From: an uncultured Treponema sp.
Lineage (GTDB): Bacteria; Spirochaetota; Spirochaetia; Treponematales; Treponemataceae
Direction of reading: 5' to 3'
Assembly (NCBI GenBank): GCA_944389965.1
Contig: CALXOI010000005.1
Location: 1-43,403 of the forward strand
Length of the DNA stretch: 43,403 bases
Shown piece after piece: positions 24,312 to 43,403 of the stretch. Positions within the stretch are counted from its first letter, which is position 1. Each line of letters opens with the position of its first letter. Made by a program: the position numbers and the translations under genes. A model generated the notes under the pieces. The model was not told the DNA's origin and made no database searches. It saw only the letters and a program-made list of their open reading frames with translations.

Positions 24312-27300
24312 ATGCCGGGATTAAATCAGCTGAAAAAATTCAGCGAAGATGTAGCTAATTTAGGAAATGAAATCTCTATCCGGAAGGAACGGGGTGAACA
24401 GCCGGTGCAGGTTGCGCTGCCGGTAAATATATCAGAAGCTGATGACTCTGACGATTTTGTTTTTGGCTTGCCGGGAACCGAGTCTGATGACCAGACCTCT
24501 GGTGATGATTTGAGTATGGATGCATTGCAAGATATTGCTTTGGATAACGGAGATAGCTCTACAGCCATAGATACATCCATTTTTCCCGAACTTGACAGTA
24601 TTTTGAATGGGACAGACTCCGCATCGGCGGATATGTCTGGTTATCCCGATCTGGAGGATCTGCTGAATCCTGTTCCAGACAACAGTACGCTTTCTGCACC
24701 GGCGGCAGAGCCTGCGCCTGAAACAGTTGTGCCGCAACAGGAAAATCCTGTTGGAGAAGCCGCATCGGCGGGGCTGTCTGATTTTCCCGATCTGGATGAA
24801 CTGTTGAATCCTGTTCCAGACAACAGTACGCTTTCTGCACCGGCGGCGGAGCCTGCGCCTGAAACAGTTGCGCCGCAACAGGAAAATCCTGTTGGAGAAG
24901 CCGCATCGGCGGGGCTGTCTGATTTTCCCGATCTGGATGAACTGCTGAATTCTGTTCCAGACAACAGTACGCTTTCTGCACCGGCGGCAGAACCTGTGCC
25001 TGAAACAGTTGTGCCGCAACAGGAAAATCCTGTGCCGGAATTCCGTGAGACAGATGCTGACAGCAATGTATCCGGTACAGAACAGTTTGATACCGGTAAT
25101 GATCAAGATTCCGTTATTTCGGCAGCAGATAACGGGTTTTTAAACATACCGGATATACCTGACTTTGATATGCCTGATATTCAGGATATTTCTCTTGATA
25201 CTGGAGACAGTTTGGGTATGGCGGAACAAAACGCAGCTGATCCGGCTTCGCATACATTTAATGCGGAATCAGATAATGGTTCTACCGGGGTGGTAACATC
25301 TGCAACGCCAGACAATACAGGTTTTGAAGACGCTTCAGCCGTTCCTGCTGAAGAAAACCTGTCGTTCCAGGATGATAGTTTGTCTGATGTTGCCGGGCAA
25401 AAACAGACAGATGACACTGCTGAAAAAAATACCTCCGAACCTAATGATGGCGGTTCGGATACCGGTGCTGGAACCTTTGATATTCCTGATTTTGATATGC
25501 CTGATATGTCAATGGCTACGTCTCCACAGGATGAAGCGTTCAATTTTGATGTATCTGACATTCCTGATTTTTTTCCGGATGTTGATGAGCCTGAAAAGGA
25601 ATCATCAGTTCCTGACACTGTTCCAGATACTGATGCTGCAAATGACGGATTGGTTAAGCCATCTTCTGATTTTGATGTTTCTGCTACGTTGGATGATTTA
25701 CCATCTTTTGATGATGTATTTAACACAGAGGTAGATTCTCACAATACAAATGAAGCGGCTGATACGTCTGTGAATCAGACAGCCGGAAATAAAATTTCTG
25801 AAGATTTTTCTTTTAAAGAAGAACCTGCCATTTCAATTGAAACTGATAGTGCCGGAGAAGACGGTTCTGCCACAGATAATTTTTCATTTGCAGAAGATAC
25901 TGTTCCAGATGACGCTGGGGAAGAAGAACCTGCGGTGCACGAAGTATTTGAAGCTCCTGAAGATCCATTTGACGGAGAACCGCCTGCTGCGGATTCCGAT
26001 CTTGATGATCCTTTCAGCGGTTCTGATTTCAGTGATTTTGATATACCGGGCTTTTCTGATCAAAGTGCCGGAGCCGCCCAATCAGCTCCCCGTAGGAAAC
26101 TGAAAACAAATAACGGTGATATTGAAAAAAATACACTGACGGATACGCAGTATAAAATTTTCAGAAAAAATCTGGCGGAATATCCTCTTAATATCAGGAT
26201 TGCTTTTGAAGAACTGATTGTTAATGATGAATTCAAAGATGAAATAGTATTTGATTTAATCCAGAAAGTTATTAAGAAAATTTCTGCCCGGCAACTGGCA
26301 ATTCAGCTTGATAAACTACTTGATGTTGGTTTGTCCGTTCCACGGGATTTTGAACGGCGTACCTATGAACAGTATGAAGAATACAAAAAATCCTTGGAGT
26401 ATCAGGTTAAAAACCGGATTCTGCCGGTTGCCTTGCTGGGAATTATGTCAGCATGTATTTTATTCTTGCTGTTCCTATTCTGTAAGAACATGATTTACCG
26501 GCCGGTAAAAGCGGAAATCCTGTATAGTCAGGGATATGAATTGCTGGAAAACGGTGCGTATCCTCAATCTGAGTTGAAATTCAATGAGGCCATAGCATAT
26601 CAGCAAAAGAAACGGTGGTTTCTAAAATATGCTGACGGTTACCGCCAGCATAAGCAGTACGAACGGGCCCGGACTATGTATACATCTGCATTGCAACGTT
26701 TCAATCACGATAAAGAAACCGGGCTCCTGTATGCCCGGATGGAAATGGAAGATTTACGTAATTTTGAAAATGCAGAAGCAATTGTCCGCCGGGAAATTCT
26801 TGATTACCACATCAATGATAAAGATGGACTGCTGTTGCTTGGTGATATCTTTTTAGAATGGGGTGATGAAAAAGATCCTGCAAAATATGAAGATGCCCGG
26901 CAGATTTATGCGGAACTTATCCAGCTATATGGTCAGAAAGATTTGTATCTCGCCCGTATGATGCGGTATTTTATCCGTGTTGATGATTTGCGGAATGTCC
27001 TGCAGCTTAAAGAGCATTTTTATCCCCGAAAAAAATCATTAGGTGGACAGGATTTAATAGAACTCAGTGGTTATCTCTTAGAAAAACTATATGGTTACAT
27101 TAATCCGGCTGATGAATATTTGCGGGCTTCAATAGAAGATGTGCGGGAACTGTTGGAACGGGCGGCAACCGCTGCACCCGATGTGCCTGAAAGCAGGTAT
27201 AATATGGGATTATATTTTGTTCACACAAATAATACCAATGCTGCTAAAGACTGGCTGGCTGCTGCTGTTGAGTCTTTTAAAACAGCTGCAACTCAATCCA

Positions 27301-30505: not shown

Positions 30506-31600
30506 ATGATTTCTGCTGGTGTTATTGGAGCGACAGGATATGCCGGTGTTGAACTGGTACGGCTGTTGCTGTGTCATCCGGAAGTAGGTAATGTTTTTGT
30601 CAGCTCCGTCAGTTTTGAAGGGCAGCAGCTGGATGCCGTATATCCAAACCTATACAGTTTATGCGGCAATGCTCCGTTGTACGGAAAAAGTACCGGACTG
30701 CTGGAAACAGCGGATGCCGTGGTTGAAAAGTCAGATGTTGTTTTTACAGCGTTGCCCCACGGTGTCGCGGAACAGTATGCTGACCGGTGTGTCAAAACCG
30801 GTAAAAAACTGATTGATTTGTCCGCAGACTTCCGGTTTGATAAGGATGAGGCTGTTTTTGCAAAATGGTACAAAAAAAACTGGGATTACCCTGAAGTCCA
30901 TGCAGAATCCGTGTATGGTCTGCCTGAAATGAACCGCCGGCGCATTGCTTCCGCTCGGATTATCGGTAATCCCGGTTGCTATGTAACATCCGCAACACTG
31001 GCGTTGCTGCCTGCATTATCGGAAAATATGATAGAAACTGATACTATTATTATTGATAGTAAAAGCGGTGTTACCGGCGCCGGCAGAAACCCTACCATGA
31101 CAAATCAGTTTTGCGAGTGCGGGGAATCCATGTCGGCCTACGGAGTCGGTGCCCACCGCCATCAACCGGAAATTGCCCATAACTGTAAAGCAATATCGGG
31201 CAAACCGTGCGGTATTGTTTTTACGCCGCATCTGGTTCCCATGAGCCGGGGGATTATCAGCACCATATACGCATTTTTGAAAAATCCCCCGGACTTACCC
31301 GATGATGCCGCCTGCAAAGCATTCACCGCAGAAATCCGTAACCGGTACCAGGCATTTTATGTGGCTGAACCGTTCGTGCGGGTACTTCCCGAAGGAAAAA
31401 ATCCCGTAACAAAGAATGTCCGGTATTCAAATTATTGTGATATGCAGGTATATACCGTTCACAACGGACGGATGCTGCAGATAGTATCTGTGCTTGACAA
31501 TATGGTAAAAGGCGCTGCAGGACAGGCGGTGCAGAACATGAATCTGATGTTCGGCTTTGCAGAAACCGCCGGACTTGATATGATTCCCCCGGCTTTTTGA
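30506..31600 (+). CDS. argC: N-acetyl-gamma-glutamyl-phosphate reductase
   Basis: A 364-residue NADPH-dependent reductase for the third step of arginine synthesis. The N-terminal GVIGATGYAGVELVRLL is the nucleotide-binding loop. Cys158 lies in the active-site motif GNPGCYVTSATLALLP, followed by DSKSGVTGAGRNP and the GAHRHQPEI histidine stretch. VVFTALPHGVAEQYA and SADFRF also fit. GAGGGGG lies 6 bases before the ATG. The enzyme is cytoplasmic. No other arg gene is adjacent, which is unlike the usual argCJBD cluster. Three TGA(A/C)TC repeats upstream may be a regulatory site. Confidence 0.95.
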   Translation: MISAGVIGATGYAGVELVRLLLCHPEVGNVFVSSVSFEGQQLDAVYPNLYSLCGNAPLYGKSTGLLETADAVVEKSDVVFTALPHGVAEQYADRCVKTGKKLIDLSADFRFDKDEAVFAKWYKKNWDYPEVHAESVYGLPEMNRRRIASARIIGNPGCYVTSATLALLPALSENMIETDTIIIDSKSGVTGAGRNPTMTNQFCECGESMSAYGVGAHRHQPEIAHNCKAISGKPCGIVFTPHLVPMSRGIISTIYAFLKNPPDLPDDAACKAFTAEIRNRYQAFYVAEPFVRVLPEGKNPVTKNVRYSNYCDMQVYTVHNGRMLQIVSVLDNMVKGAAGQAVQNMNLMFGFAETAGLDMIPPAF

Positions 31601-32208
31601 AACATAACCGGAGCCGGTATCCTCGGATTGCAGCAGTTTTCCGTTCCATGAAAAAGCAACAGCACCCGCTTTCCGGAAAAACCGGCCCGCCAAACAAAAG
31701 GTGGTGCGGAATGTTTTGTTGTCCGGCTGTGCTTGTTTTTGTTCCGGGCGCATACCGCCGTGGGGCGGTACCGGGTCGGCTCCGGGCTTCCGGTCCGCAG
31801 GGCTGCCACCGTTTTCCCTGCGGACGCCTGCGGCCCCTCCGCGCCCCTTGCGCAACGTACAGCGTCAGTTTTTTTTGCTGCCGCCCGCCGTGGGGAATAG
31901 CAGTATCATTCCACCGGGGTGTAAACCGTCTGTTTTGTTCCGTACCGGACAAACCGGGCTTACTCTGTCCGCCGGATGCTGCGTCCGTGCCGTCCCGTCC
32001 GGTGCGGCATTCCGCCGCTTTGACCGGGCAGCAGTATGGCAGCGGTTTTATTCTGCCGGCTTTCAGGTACCGCTGTCAGATCCGGCAGCGGCTTTCTGCG
32101 GAAAGTTTTTGTGAATTTGTTGCGCAACTGCATTTTTTGTGTATACTGCAATGTATACTTCAAATAATAACTGTAATTATTTATTTTATTAAAAAGGATT
32201 ATAACGTT
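31601..32208. other. GC-rich gap without a convincing gene
   Basis: About 600 bases between argC and the alpha/beta hydrolase. The middle part (31740-31860) is much richer in G+C than the flanking genes. All frames are open for long stretches because stop codons are rare in such DNA, but none has a start with SD or recognisable protein sequence; translations are Arg/Pro/Cys/Gly-rich. Several CCGG words occur. The final 60 bases turn AT-rich and carry the SD AAGGA of the next gene. It may be decayed sequence or a dispersed repeat. Confidence 0.6.
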
Positions 32209-37169: not shown

Positions 37170-39680
37170 ATGACTGTATTCAAAAAAGTTTTGGCATGGT
37201 GCGGATGTATTTCCGCCAGTGTATTACTGTTTTGTTGCGCAAATGTAACTTCACGTCCCGCCACAGATGAGGCGGCTGCGGCACAAACCGCCGGGGCAGG
37301 CGGTACGTTCACGTTTGCAGGTTTTACCTGGCAGGTTGTCAGCGGCACTGCCTCTGTTCACAACGGAACGCTGTTTGTTTCTGCCCCGGAAGAAGGTATT
37401 GCTGTCCAGCTTACCGGTGAGTCCCTGCAGCAACTTGCGGATGTCCTGGATTCAGAGCAGTTTTATGTGGAAGCAGTCGTCCGGCCTACAGGAAAAGGTT
37501 CCGGTTCCAATAAAAATTTTGGTGTTGCCAGCCATATTGGCAAAACAGCTGACGGTAAAGATAATTTTTACTATGCGGGCGTTAATTTCAATGGGCGGAC
37601 ACAGCTTGGTACCGGGTTAACACCAAAAGGTTTGCAGTTCGGCTCATTGGTTTCCGACACTTCTGTTTTTTCTGCGGATGGGTGGCAGCAGTTTTATAAG
37701 ATACGTTATGAATACGACAAAGGTTCTATTGCCGGGTATATCAATAATATTCAATTTATTAAAAGCGGGCAAACATCGTATACCATTCCCTCCGGAGAAA
37801 CGGTTGCGGACGGAACAGTGGGAATTTATACCAACGGGGACAGTTTTGAAATGACGTCATTCCGTGCCGGCAAACTGACAGAAGGCTATGCCGGATTGTT
37901 GCTGTCCGGTAATTCCACAGACTTTATTACATTGGCTTCCGGCAGCGAAAAATATATATTCCTGAATTCTATAGAATATGAAGTCCGAGCAGGCTCCGAT
38001 CCGGTTTCTTTTACGGTAACCGCATTTGATGATTCCAAAGCACCCACCGGTTTTTCTGTTGAATCCTCTGATAAAAAGGTTGTATCGGCAGTAAAAACAG
38101 ACGGCGGTTTTACGCTGAATTTTAAAAGTACGGGAAACGCTGTGATCACGGTACAAAATGATGCTGTCCCGGCTGAAATCAAAACAATATATGTGATTGT
38201 TCTGGAACCACTTGCTGAAACAGATACGGATTACGGTGTGTATACCGGATTTTATCCGCAGCCGGGTGCAACCGGTGTTTTTGAGGATTCCGCTTTGTCC
38301 ATTACTTTTGACGGTGAACCGGAATTGAATGAGGGTTCGGTATATATTTACAAAAACGACGGGACTCTGGTTGATGAAATAAAAATCGGGGCGGAACAGA
38401 ATACGGTTTCAGACGGAACCAATTCATACAATTTTACCCTTAAAAATTTTATGGTTCAGAAGTCAGGGAATACGGTGCATATTATTCCCCATAGCGGAGT
38501 TCTTGAGCCGCAGACAGAATATTATGTTGCAATCGGAGATGGTTCCATCACCGGCACTGTCAACGGCAAGAAATTTACCGGTTTTACCCAGGCAGCCCGG
38601 CGGTGGTATTTTACAACCCGGGAGGCACATACACCGGCGGATTCTGCTTCAATTACCGTGTCGCTGACGGACAGTACCGCAGATTACCGGACGGTTCAGG
38701 CGGCACTGGCTCATGCAGTTGAAGGGAGCGTAATTACCGTTGATCCGGGAATATACCGGGAAATTGTTTATTACAAGAAAGGGTTTGGTGTGACAATCAC
38801 CGGTAATACGGAAACACCATACGGGGCTGATGTGGTAATCCAGGGAATCAACTGTAATGCATATAACGGCAGTTCCCACACCCGTGCTGCCTTTTATTGG
38901 AGCGGTTCCGATTTGACACTGAAAAACCTGACAATAGAAAATGCCTATGACCGGAATGTAGACGGTACCGCCCAGTCCGAAGCATTGTTCTTTGCAAACG
39001 GTGCCGGGAAAAAACTGACGGCATATAACTGTTCGTTCAAGGGGCATCAGGATACGCTCCAGACATCCGGTAAAAACTGGTTTTATCGGTGCTATATTGA
39101 AGGCGACACGGATTTTATCTGGGGTACTGCGGACGTAGCGCTGTTTGAAGAGTGCCGCATTACAATGCTGGACAGCACCGGTGATGAGGTAAAGGCTTCT
39201 GATGCGATTATTTTTGAAACCCGGGTCGGTAATACGGCAGAAACGGTTGTTCCCAAAGGATATGTGCTGCTGAACTGTACGGTAGATGCGCAGCATCCGA
39301 CTTCTTATCTGGCACGCAGGGCAACCAACAAGCGTACCACCGCTTATTATGATCAGGCGGCGGTCATAAATTGTACGTTTACCGGTACGCTTAATGAAGA
39401 ATTGTGGCTCAGCCAGAATGTAAAAGCTGACAAAAATCTGCCGGAATATCTGGAAAAAGATGCCGGCGGCAATATGAATGTAGGCTGGAAAGTATACGGC
39501 GGTTCCGGGATTCCGGAGGAAAAAATTGACAGTTATCCGTACGCAGGCACTGTTTCAGAGGATGTATATTCCAATGAATACAGTAACCGTGACCAGATTA
39601 TGAACCGGGTATTCAATAAAAATACCGGAACGTATGAATCCGCCGCCACAAAGTGGGATCTGGATTCCGGTTCGCTGTAA
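37170..39680 (+). CDS. Multidomain pectin methylesterase (CE8), predicted lipoprotein
   Basis: An 836-residue exported enzyme that removes methyl esters from pectin. The signal peptide ends in two cysteines (LLFCC, Cys22/Cys23), a weak lipobox. Residues about 45-235 look like a concanavalin-type jelly roll (FYVEAVVRPTGKGSG, GYINNIQFIKSG). Residues 250-345 resemble an immunoglobulin-like strand domain and 350-480 an SbsA-like domain (YPQPGATGVFEDSALSITFDGEP, YYVAIGDG). The C-terminal CE8 beta-helix has the family motifs GIYREIV, GHQDTL (Asp628) and DFIWGTADVALFEECR (Asp648), both catalytic aspartates present. AGGAGG lies 4 bases before the ATG. A pectate lyase gene follows in the same direction, the natural next step of pectin breakdown. 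Confidence 0.9.
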   Translation: MTVFKKVLAWCGCISASVLLFCCANVTSRPATDEAAAAQTAGAGGTFTFAGFTWQVVSGTASVHNGTLFVSAPEEGIAVQLTGESLQQLADVLDSEQFYVEAVVRPTGKGSGSNKNFGVASHIGKTADGKDNFYYAGVNFNGRTQLGTGLTPKGLQFGSLVSDTSVFSADGWQQFYKIRYEYDKGSIAGYINNIQFIKSGQTSYTIPSGETVADGTVGIYTNGDSFEMTSFRAGKLTEGYAGLLLSGNSTDFITLASGSEKYIFLNSIEYEVRAGSDPVSFTVTAFDDSKAPTGFSVESSDKKVVSAVKTDGGFTLNFKSTGNAVITVQNDAVPAEIKTIYVIVLEPLAETDTDYGVYTGFYPQPGATGVFEDSALSITFDGEPELNEGSVYIYKNDGTLVDEIKIGAEQNTVSDGTNSYNFTLKNFMVQKSGNTVHIIPHSGVLEPQTEYYVAIGDGSITGTVNGKKFTGFTQAARRWYFTTREAHTPADSASITVSLTDSTADYRTVQAALAHAVEGSVITVDPGIYREIVYYKKGFGVTITGNTETPYGADVVIQGINCNAYNGSSHTRAAFYWSGSDLTLKNLTIENAYDRNVDGTAQSEALFFANGAGKKLTAYNCSFKGHQDTLQTSGKNWFYRCYIEGDTDFIWGTADVALFEECRITMLDSTGDEVKASDAIIFETRVGNTAETVVPKGYVLLNCTVDAQHPTSYLARRATNKRTTAYYDQAAVINCTFTGTLNEELWLSQNVKADKNLPEYLEKDAGGNMNVGWKVYGGSGIPEEKIDSYPYAGTVSEDVYSNEYSNRDQIMNRVFNKNTGTYESAATKWDLDSGSL

Positions 39681-39841
39681 TTATCCGAAACCCGGCTGCT
39701 GTCGTTGCGGAAAATGTGAATCCGGCAGGTTATGGCATGGCTATTTATGTGCACCGGCACATCTTTCCGCAGCAGGTGCGCAGGGTATGCTGCAATATGG
39801 AAAAAACTGCGCCGGAACAAAATATTTTCAGGAGGTTTTAT

Positions 39842-42385
39842 GTGAAAAAATCAGGTTTGATTTTTGGAGGACTGCTTGCAGCTATGATACTGCTTTGTGC
39901 CGGCTGTGCAAACACTGTTACAGCCGGAGGAAATGCATCTGCCGGTGTTCCGGTTGAATCTGTTACAATATCCGGGAAGAAAGCTGTCGCAGTAGGATCT
40001 TCCATATCACTGCAGGCAACCGTCAGCCCGTCAAACGCAACGGTGCAGACACTAAGCTGGACATCCAGTAATACCGGTGCGGCAACAGTTTCCGGGTCGG
40101 GGAGCCGGGCTACGGTTACCGGTGTGGCGGCAGGAACAGCGGTGATTACCGCCGCTGCAACAGACGGCAGCGGTAAAAAAGCAGAGTGGCAGGTGACAGT
40201 TACATCATTCACCATTAACCCCACACGTGTTCTGCTGGTGGAAGGCAGTACGGCACAGATTAGTCTGACCGGTGACGCCGGCGGTGTAAGCTGGACATCC
40301 AGTAATACCGGTGCGGCAACAGTTTCCGGGTCGGGGAGCCGGGCTACGGTTACCGGTGTGGCTGCAGGAACAGCGGTAATTACCGCCGCTACGGAGGAAT
40401 GTACCGCAACATGTGAAATAACCGTGGAATCCGGCACGCTGCCTGCGGAAACCTGGTGGAGAGCGGAGGAGTACCCTGCCGGGGATATTACTGAAACAAC
40501 AGAACTGGGGATAATGACTGCGGTCATTGACAGTGCAACTAATAAATTGACTATAGAAAAGTCGTCAAAAACAATAGGAGATATTGTTTTTAACGCCCGT
40601 CTCAAAACAAACGGCTCTGGTTCAACAAGCAAAAGGACACTAAAATTTAATGTTTCAGGTCCGTGCACGGTAACGGTGTATTGTGCTTCCGCAAGTTCTT
40701 CTGCGGCAGACAGACCGCTTGTTTTGGCGGATGACAACGGACCGCTGGTTTCTGATAACTGTGCTCCTGTTGAAGCCGGAACGCTGGTATATGATTATAC
40801 GGGAATGGCGGGAACCCTTTATCTGTATTCCGGAAACAGAGGTATAAATATTTACGGTGTAAAAATATCTACTACAGCCGGAACCACCGGAACTGTTGTT
40901 GCTCCTTCCGGCATTGCGGTTGACAAAACGTCTCTTGGTTTTGATTTGTCTGAGGGAAATGCAACAAGTACGCTGACTGCAACACTGCAACCGGCGGATG
41001 TGACGGCAGGCTATGACGGAATCATCTGGGAGTCAGACAATCCTGCTGTGGCAACCGTTGACGGCAACGGCAAAACAGCCCTGGTAAGGGCTGTCGCTGC
41101 AGGAACAGCCGTTATAACCGCAACCACAGAATACGGCAGTTTTTCCGCCGGATGTACGGTAACCGTTACCGGAGAACGGACAGCGGTAATCCGGGCGTCG
41201 GATATTCCTTCCGGTTATGCTTCAACCGGTGTCAGTACCTCCGGTTTCGGGGGATACGGCGGAACGGTTGTAACGGTTTCTTCTAAAGAAAAACTTGTGG
41301 AATATGCAAAAAAATCCGGTAAATATGTTATCTATATTGACGGTATGATTGATATGTCCGGCGGAATGTTGCCGGCTGAAGGCGGCGGTTCAACAACAGC
41401 ATTGGACGAATTTGTAAAGAATAATTCGGATTTTGAAACGTATGAAGCGTTCAAAACAGCTTATGCGGGTGCGTGCAGTGAGAAAACAGATGATAGCTCC
41501 AGTTCCAGCCCGGGAAGCACTTATGGCAGCGTCTTGTGGACACTGAACAAAGCGTATAAAAATGTAATCCAGTTGAACCTGACCAGCGACAAGACACTGA
41601 TCGGGCTGGGTACAGGCAGCGGTATCAAGGGTGGAACAGTCAGCATTGCTGATGCAAGCAACATTGCGCTGAGAAATCTGACCATACAGGATGCCTATGA
41701 TCCGTTCCCCCATCATGAGGACGGAGACGGATTCAATGCCCAACATGATGCCATTGGTATTCAGGGTACTTGTTCCAACATCTGGATTGATCACTGCACC
41801 CTGAAAGACACTCTGTACGCAGGAACGGTTTTAATCAGTGACGGCGAATCAGAAAAATGGCAGACATATGACGGTCTGTGCGACATGAAAGGTGACGTAA
41901 AAAATATAACGGTTTCTAACTGTAAATTCATGGAACACGATAAAACCATGCTTGTGGGTTCCAGTGATACAGACGGAAGCAATGAAACAAGGACGCTTAC
42001 ATTGAGCGGTAATTATTTTTATAATTGCGGACAGCGCCTGCCTATGGCACGGAATGTAAAAGCGCATATTTACAATAATTATTACGATGCGGAATCATCT
42101 CCCCATTATAAACAGCAGTATGCGGTCGGCTGCCGTGCCGGTTCCCTGATTGTTGCCGAGAACAATTATTTTGGCAGCGGGATTGATTACAGCTTCAAGA
42201 ATTCGGACGGAACACTGTATAGTTCCGGTAATACGGATAATTCCCAACAGAAATGTAGCACAACAACGATAAGTAGCAGCAAACCGTTTGTGATTCCCTA
42301 TACTTATACGGTAGTGTCTGCTTCGGAAGCAAAGGCTGTTGCAGAAGAATTTGCCGGTGCCGGTACCTGTTCTGTAATACAATAA
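39842..42385 (+). CDS. PL1 pectate lyase with bacterial Ig-like (BIG2) domains, lipoprotein
   Basis: An 847-residue exported enzyme that cleaves polygalacturonate by beta-elimination. It starts with GTG at 39842, 6 bases after AGGAGG; the overlapping ATG is followed at once by TGA in another frame. The signal peptide ends at lipobox Cys22 (CAGC). Three BIG2-like domains lie at about residues 35-115, 118-190 and 345-425, and a carbohydrate-binding-like region between the last two. The catalytic PL1 beta-helix runs from about 435: TLIGLGTGSGI, NLTIQDAYDP, DAIGIQG, WIDH (Asp650-His651), DGLCDMKGDVKNITVSNCKFMEHDKTMLVG and RLPMAR (Arg732, Arg737), all family hallmarks. It is probably surface-anchored and acts with the methylesterase upstream. 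A terminator follows. Confidence 0.92.
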   Translation: MKKSGLIFGGLLAAMILLCAGCANTVTAGGNASAGVPVESVTISGKKAVAVGSSISLQATVSPSNATVQTLSWTSSNTGAATVSGSGSRATVTGVAAGTAVITAAATDGSGKKAEWQVTVTSFTINPTRVLLVEGSTAQISLTGDAGGVSWTSSNTGAATVSGSGSRATVTGVAAGTAVITAATEECTATCEITVESGTLPAETWWRAEEYPAGDITETTELGIMTAVIDSATNKLTIEKSSKTIGDIVFNARLKTNGSGSTSKRTLKFNVSGPCTVTVYCASASSSAADRPLVLADDNGPLVSDNCAPVEAGTLVYDYTGMAGTLYLYSGNRGINIYGVKISTTAGTTGTVVAPSGIAVDKTSLGFDLSEGNATSTLTATLQPADVTAGYDGIIWESDNPAVATVDGNGKTALVRAVAAGTAVITATTEYGSFSAGCTVTVTGERTAVIRASDIPSGYASTGVSTSGFGGYGGTVVTVSSKEKLVEYAKKSGKYVIYIDGMIDMSGGMLPAEGGGSTTALDEFVKNNSDFETYEAFKTAYAGACSEKTDDSSSSSPGSTYGSVLWTLNKAYKNVIQLNLTSDKTLIGLGTGSGIKGGTVSIADASNIALRNLTIQDAYDPFPHHEDGDGFNAQHDAIGIQGTCSNIWIDHCTLKDTLYAGTVLISDGESEKWQTYDGLCDMKGDVKNITVSNCKFMEHDKTMLVGSSDTDGSNETRTLTLSGNYFYNCGQRLPMARNVKAHIYNNYYDAESSPHYKQQYAVGCRAGSLIVAENNYFGSGIDYSFKNSDGTLYSSGNTDNSQQKCSTTTISSSKPFVIPYTYTVVSASEAKAVAEEFAGAGTCSVIQ
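40053..40156 (+). repeat. Direct repeat within the pectate lyase BIG2 domains, copy 1
   Basis: About 104 bases nearly identical to 40287-40390, offset 234 bases, encoding LSWTSSNTGAATVSGSGS and the following strands. Confidence 0.92.
40287..40390 (+). repeat. Direct repeat within the pectate lyase BIG2 domains, copy 2
   Basis: Second copy of the block at 40053-40156, differing at only a few positions, so recently duplicated or converted. Confidence 0.92.
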
Positions 42386-42407
42386 CAATTTGCGTTTCCG
42401 GTCTGTG

Positions 42408-42438
42408 ACGGGTATTCCTGCGGGAATATCCGTTTTTT
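42408..42438 (+). terminator. Rho-independent terminator after the pectate lyase gene
   Basis: ACGGGTATTCC (42408-42418) pairs with GGAATATCCGT (42423-42433) with one G-T wobble and a 4-base loop, followed by six T residues. Confidence 0.9.
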
Positions 42439-42486: not shown

Positions 42487-43403
42487 CCGGCTGTGTCTGC
42501 CAGGCAGCGGGAGGGATAAACGCGGAAACGGGGCACCTGTTTTCAGCGCAAATGGAAGCGGCTTAGCGGTTGGGGTTGCCTTGTGTCGCCGGTTTGCCGG
42601 TTGCGGTTTGCCCTGCGCCGGTGGTTTGCCCTGTACCGGTGGCTTGCCGGTTGCGGGTTTGTCGGTGTTTTGCCGGTTGCGGTTTGCCGGTGGTTTGCCC
42701 TGCGTCGGTTGCGGCTTGTCGGCAGTTTGCCCTGCGCCGGCTGCGGGTTTGCCGGTAGTCTGTCCTGTGCCGGTTGCGGTTTGCCGGCGGTTTCTCCTGC
42801 GCCGGCTGCGGGTTTGCCGGTAGTCTGTCCTGTGCCGGTTGCGGTTTGCCGGTGGTTTGCCGGTTGCGGTTTGCCGGCGGTTTGCCGGTGGTTTTGCCGG
42901 TTGCGGGTTTGCCGGCTGTGTCTGACACAGGCAGCGGGAGGGATAAAAGCGGAAACGGGCGCTCCTGTTTTCAGCGCAAATGGAAGCGGCTTAGCGGTTG
43001 CGGCGGCTTGTGTCGCCGGTTTGCCGGTTGCGGTTTGCCGGTTGCGGTTTGCCGGCGGTTTGCCGGCGGTTTTGCCGGCGGTTTTGCCGGCGGTTTTGCC
43101 GGCTGTGGTGGCTTGTCCTGCGCCGGTAGTTTCTCCTGCGCCGGTTGCGGTTGCGGCGGTTTGCCGGTGGTTTTGCCAGTTGCGGTGGCTTGCCCTGTAC
43201 CGGTGGCTTGCCGGTTGCGGTTTGCTCTGCGCCGGTTGCGGGTTTGTCGGTGTTTTGCCGGATGCCCGCCCGGTTTGCCTTGTGCCGGTTGCGGCTTGTC
43301 GGCAGTTTGCCCTGTGTCGGCAGTTTGCCCTGCGCCTGTGGCTTGCCGGCTGCAGTAGTCTGCCCTGTGCCGGAGGTTTTCCGGTTGCGGTAGTCTGTGC
43401 TGT
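42487..43403. repeat. GC-rich higher-order repeat array, runs off the right edge
   Basis: About 920 bases built of short overlapping words such as TTGCCGGTTGCGG, TTTGCCGGCGG, TTGCCCTGCGCCGG and TTGCCCTGTACCGG. Two levels are visible. A head of about 110 bases (CAGCGGGAGGGATAAA, then GCGCAAATGGAAGCGGC) occurs at 42487-42600 and again at 42915-43030, an offset of 427-428 bases, each followed by a long run of the short words. Within the second run a perfect 12-base unit GCCGGCGGTTTT repeats at 43062-43103. Frames on both strands are open because the words contain few stop codons, but translations are repetitive Cys/Arg/Gly or Lys/Pro/Gln-rich with no SD, so I do not call a gene. Confidence 0.85.

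Follow-up and report, generated by a model that had tools for sequence, protein, structure and literature searches.

A layered, non-coding GC-rich repeat array at a contig end of an uncultured Treponema

Minisatellites or VNTR loci of bacteria are tandem repeats that are used in MLVA typing (PMC2884548). The array described here, from an uncultured Treponema, shares with them the head-to-tail arrangement of degenerate copies, a period of more than ~10 bp and a position outside genes, but differs in having two to three nested levels, namely short words, units of 32 and 65 bp and a segment of ~427 bp that includes non-repetitive DNA. Copy-number variation between strains is the hallmark of minisatellites; the genomes compared here comprised one per species, and the congeners lack the locus. 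In the higher-order repeats of eukaryotic satellites, a block of several words is duplicated as a whole. A multi-word block was likewise copied whole in the present case, but the resemblance is one of form only, and the array differs in showing two units, a head that is not made of array sequence, and poor homogenisation. A further point of comparison is provided by HIP1 and related highly iterated palindromes of cyanobacteria, where an excess of rCCGGy together with a gained methyltransferase is described for Oscillatoria PCC 10802 (PMC4390886). A search of the literature on repeats in rumen Treponema yielded no report. The locus is most likely a known kind of element, a bacterial minisatellite, with an unusually layered build.

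Layered architecture of the array

The window, i.e. the whole stretch of DNA that was analysed, is the entire contig C5 (43,403 bases) of a 2.39-Mb draft genome in 193 contigs. Its end is the end of the contig, and the array is thus truncated by the assembly. The array and its left flank comprise the following features:

39653..42385, + strand: pectate lyase gene of the left flank, an open reading frame matching PF00544 (E 1e-33)
42407..42434, + strand: intrinsic terminator of the pectate lyase gene, a 12-pair stem with a T run after it (fold z -3.2)
42487..42600, + strand: head, copy 1, whose only other copy in the genome is copy 2
42600..42911, + strand: word array of unit 1, holding a 77-mer (42785-42861) in common with the end of contig C179
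42912..43026, + strand: head, copy 2
43027..43403, + strand: word array of unit 2, cut by the contig end and collinear with unit 1 at offsets of 559-598
43044..43103, + strand: near-perfect block of the 12-bp tandem unit GCGGTTTTGCCG (TRF: 5.2 copies, 97% matches)

The pectate lyase additionally carries three Big_2 domains (Pfam PF02368, E 3e-28). The two heads, ~115 bp each, start at 42487 and 42912, and each precedes a dense GC-rich array of GCCGG and TTTGCC words. Their identity is 93-100% depending on the segment; in register, segments at spacings of 425, 427 and 428 bp are 94%, 97% and 93% identical, and the 33 bp of array immediately 3' of the head are identical in both units (42580/43007). 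TRF detected periods of 11, 12, 14, 18, 24, 25, 32, 36, 65 and 97 bp in the array, the strongest inner period of unit 1 being one of 65 bp (2.9 copies, 88%) that is made of two halves of 32/33 bp. With the heads removed, only 341 of ~680 10-mers are distinct, compared to at least 665 in 200 shuffles. As evidenced by TRF, the 10-mer counts and the paired heads in register, the sequence-only reading was correct in describing an array of GCCGG and TTTGCC words with a repeated head, and the strong terminator that it placed ahead of the array is indeed present.

The same reading had described a super-repeat of 427 bp, and this holds for the distance from head to head (425-428 bp), but not as a constant period. 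In exact-match chaining, the offsets of 425-428 between the heads jump to 559-598 past the head, because the 12-bp unit was amplified inside unit 2 (43044-43103). It follows that unit 2 was copied from the whole of unit 1, head included, and received inserted tandem copies, that block among them; the super-repeat is one segmental duplication without a regular period.

Among 300-bp windows taken from 447 kb of the genome, the array is extreme in GC content (0.65) and AT skew (-0.67), and its 8-mer diversity of 0.43 is the lowest, the next lowest GC-rich patch reaching 0.88. The + strand of the unit 1 array contains 1.3% A, 40% G and 33% T. Compared with 20 dinucleotide shuffles, the entire array has a more stable fold as single-stranded DNA (z -3.7), which is expected from repetitive CCGG palindromes; it could also mean structure.

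We consider it probable, at about 0.75, that the array is a neutral minisatellite with nested levels, situated between genes and giving rise to no gene product, and that the head is a passenger of the segmental duplication. Its copies are tandem and head to tail, with units of more than about 9 bp, and matches to the array are confined to C5 and the end of C179, so that it is locus-specific and not dispersed. The earlier notion of a non-coding minisatellite with a super-repeat thus finds support in the nested repeats, the collinear units and the absence of a coding signal. The GCCGG and TTTGCC words would have multiplied through replication slippage or unequal exchange, with periods of about 11-12, 32/33 and 65 bp; a segment of ordinary spacer DNA, the head, would have been duplicated along with the array at least once, after which the extra 12-bp expansion would have arisen in the second copy. 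Slippage seeds should be plentiful, as GCCGG is 5.6-fold over base expectation outside the array, and in a gap between two terminators, with neither a promoter nor a reading frame to protect, nothing would select against growth of the array. Such a locus would make a hypervariable marker for strains.

Further repeats were noted in this genome. On C179 (L006, 1488-2092), 13.8 copies of the 44-bp unit TCTTGTCAGCCCAACAGGAGAATCTTTTCAGCCTGACAATATTC lie in an intergenic-looking region upstream of a Big_2-domain gene, and the 22-bp unit GGATACGTTATCCATAAGCCTA, or a close variant, is found in tandem on C4 (L042, 4065-4206, 6.5 copies), again in what looks like intergenic DNA, and at the end of C16 (L112, ~1010-1140). 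In view of these other tandem arrays, the genome seems prone to such growth. A dispersed repeat family is represented by GC-rich spacers at 31600-32100 of the window and, in reverse orientation, at ~2150-2560 of C179 (L006), which have words such as GGGCGCATRCCGCC, CCGGGTCGGCTCCGGGCTTCCGG and CCTCCGCGCCCCTTGCGCA in common.

The head and the right flank

The head had been proposed to be an embedded functional element, such as a recombination hotspot, a nucleoid site or a structured RNA. It does differ from the array in composition, with 16-18% A on the + strand versus 1-3%, and ~93-97% identity was retained between its two copies. Nevertheless, a functional head, be it a protein-binding site, a structured RNA or a recombination site, with the array as an attached amplifier, appears unlikely. 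Folding of the head on both strands gave no excess over shuffles (z +0.57, -0.29, +0.47 and -0.22) and a search of Rfam returned no family match, so that neither mark of a structured RNA was found. A search of its own genome did recover the two copies on C5, but none beyond these; the head was also absent from nine congeners and, among the best candidates scored per genome, from the 274 genomes searched across the family. The E. coli Chi octamer GCTGGTGG does not occur in the array, and the head and the long words are found only here and on C179, in contrast to a dispersed functional repeat (REP/BIME-like, uptake sequence or E. coli Chi). A 17-mer core of the head has 27 exact matches in viral contigs of IMG/VR, but these are set in unrelated flanks and were rejected as chance. 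The better preservation of the head than of the array between copies could be due to selection, but is also accounted for if short repeats turn over more quickly.

Assemblies of short reads frequently get tandem repeats wrong (PMC6868369), and the second unit or the order of the repeats might have been created by the assembler. The array stops at the contig end, and contig C179 (4,418 bases) terminates in 77 bases that are identical to 42785-42861 in the interior of the array, much like a branch in a de Bruijn graph; an overlap of exactly this length points to an unresolved assembly branch. An artefact is unlikely, however, since the units differ in substitutions, indels and internal expansion, which no assembler would be expected to make up, and array words are also found beside unique DNA on the independent contig C179.

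Past the shared 77 bases, C179 has ~30 bases of further array words before its sequence becomes unique; a short distance on, a repeat resembling a terminator follows, and then a PurF-like gene oriented towards the array. Judged by this one shared 77-mer, C179 very likely forms the right flank of the array, which would then lie between the 3' ends of convergent pectate lyase and PurF-like genes, each ended by a terminator. On this reading, which is the simplest, the 77-base stretch would recur at least once more past the end of C5; alternatively, C179 may represent a strain with a shorter array. The array accounts for a break in the assembly. PurF-like orthologues (79-83% identical) in two other genomes, G005 and G006, have a different gene immediately downstream and no array. 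The pectinesterase-like gene of the window has relatives in genomes designated 'Spirochaetaceae bacterium' and 'Treponema sp.', and those examined have no array downstream.

CCGG excess in the genome

The abundance of CCGG was determined for 447 kb of the genome without the array (window 1-42386, L006 and L036-L055). With 11,264 observed versus 2,062 expected occurrences on both strands, CCGG is present at 5.46 times expectation, the ratio being 5.3 in presumed genes and 6.3 in the remainder, and the excess is seen in all three codon phases. TGCCGG is over-represented 9.5-fold and GCTGCCGG 24-fold. Synonymous codon choice in this sample tracks the neighbouring bases: usage of GCC for alanine is 55% before GG versus 13% before GA, GC or GT, and usage of ACC for threonine is likewise 68% versus 20%. 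Other palindromes, CGCG, GCGC, GGCC (0.46) and GATC, are depleted. Elsewhere, the CCGG ratio ranges from 0.0 to 2.9 in small samples of genomes from the genus, and it is 4.2 in one other genome of the family.

This excess resembles the HIP phenomenon in that CCGG, like HIP1 in cyanobacteria, is a short palindrome that recurs in genes as well as in spacers. A literature search for CCGG tetranucleotide excess with palindromes retrieved nothing, and the nearest published case that we found is the rCCGGy of Oscillatoria PCC 10802 (PMC4390886). Unlike in that case, a cognate methyltransferase for CCGG is only a candidate here, among five C5-methyltransferase matches in the genome. There is also one Vsr match, and in Caulobacter a Vsr-like protein is functionally tied to the methyltransferase of YGCCGGCR motifs (PMC12907096). 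Simple very-short-patch repair found no support as the cause of the CCGG excess, the expected deamination products CTGG and TCGG not being depleted relative to their neighbours as it would predict. An HpaII-type endonuclease was sought in the genome and none was found. On C152 (L107), a C5-methyltransferase adjoins a putative HaeIII-type endonuclease. A drive of HIP type acting on CCGG and its half-sites, perhaps by way of a cytosine methyltransferase and a Vsr-type repair enzyme, might together with slippage have built the array as a dense CCGG cluster that serves as a methylation or repair landmark; we regard this origin as improbable. Unlike the dispersed palindrome HIP1, the array forms a clustered tandem locus. 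In itself, the CCGG excess offers an example, open to testing, of a highly iterated palindrome in an organism other than a cyanobacterium, and it may hold more interest than the array.

Reading frames and array-like words in genes

The array is non-coding, as it had appeared to be from the letters. Its words occur in all three frames, the offsets of repeated 10-mer pairs are spread over the three phases (450/342/358) with no strong 3-bp rule, and none of the spacings of 25, 32, 65, 97, 427 and 428 is divisible by three. Neither the single conserved frame of a protein-coding repeat gene nor main spacings in multiples of three were found, and a Pfam search of three long array frames gave no match. 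It is very improbable that the minus strand encodes a low-complexity protein rich in Lys, Pro, Ala and Gly that runs in from past the contig end. There is an open frame of 286 aa on this strand, and the 12-bp unit translates as K-P-P-A, with like words in frame within genes of other genera (G035, G039). With only 1-3% A on the + strand, however, stops seldom occur in any of the frames, and a long open frame is uninformative. The three-frame word usage, the spacings and the Pfam result also argue against such a protein, and on C179 this strand shows no clear gene start, the open frames of all three phases beginning with TTG only. GC-rich repeats free of A keep every frame open, with a risk of false gene calls.

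Candidate homologues of the array in G001, G035, G039 and G194 were dismissed, as the matches fall within protein-coding sequence or within in-frame linkers of low complexity; G196 has a short match to the array. In other genera the matches that were read are weak and belong to in-frame coding sequence, the array-like words forming, for instance, linkers rich in A/G/K/T/P in a diguanylate-cyclase-like protein of G035 and in a second enzyme of G039. The former (L056, ~1501-1558) is a membrane protein with an in-frame GRTAGRTTGKTAGKTAG insert that is built from the DNA words of the array. The window itself encodes a large, acidic, transmembrane-segment-bearing protein whose gene carries an in-frame tandem repeat of 141 bp at 24619-25033 (2.9 copies, 94%).
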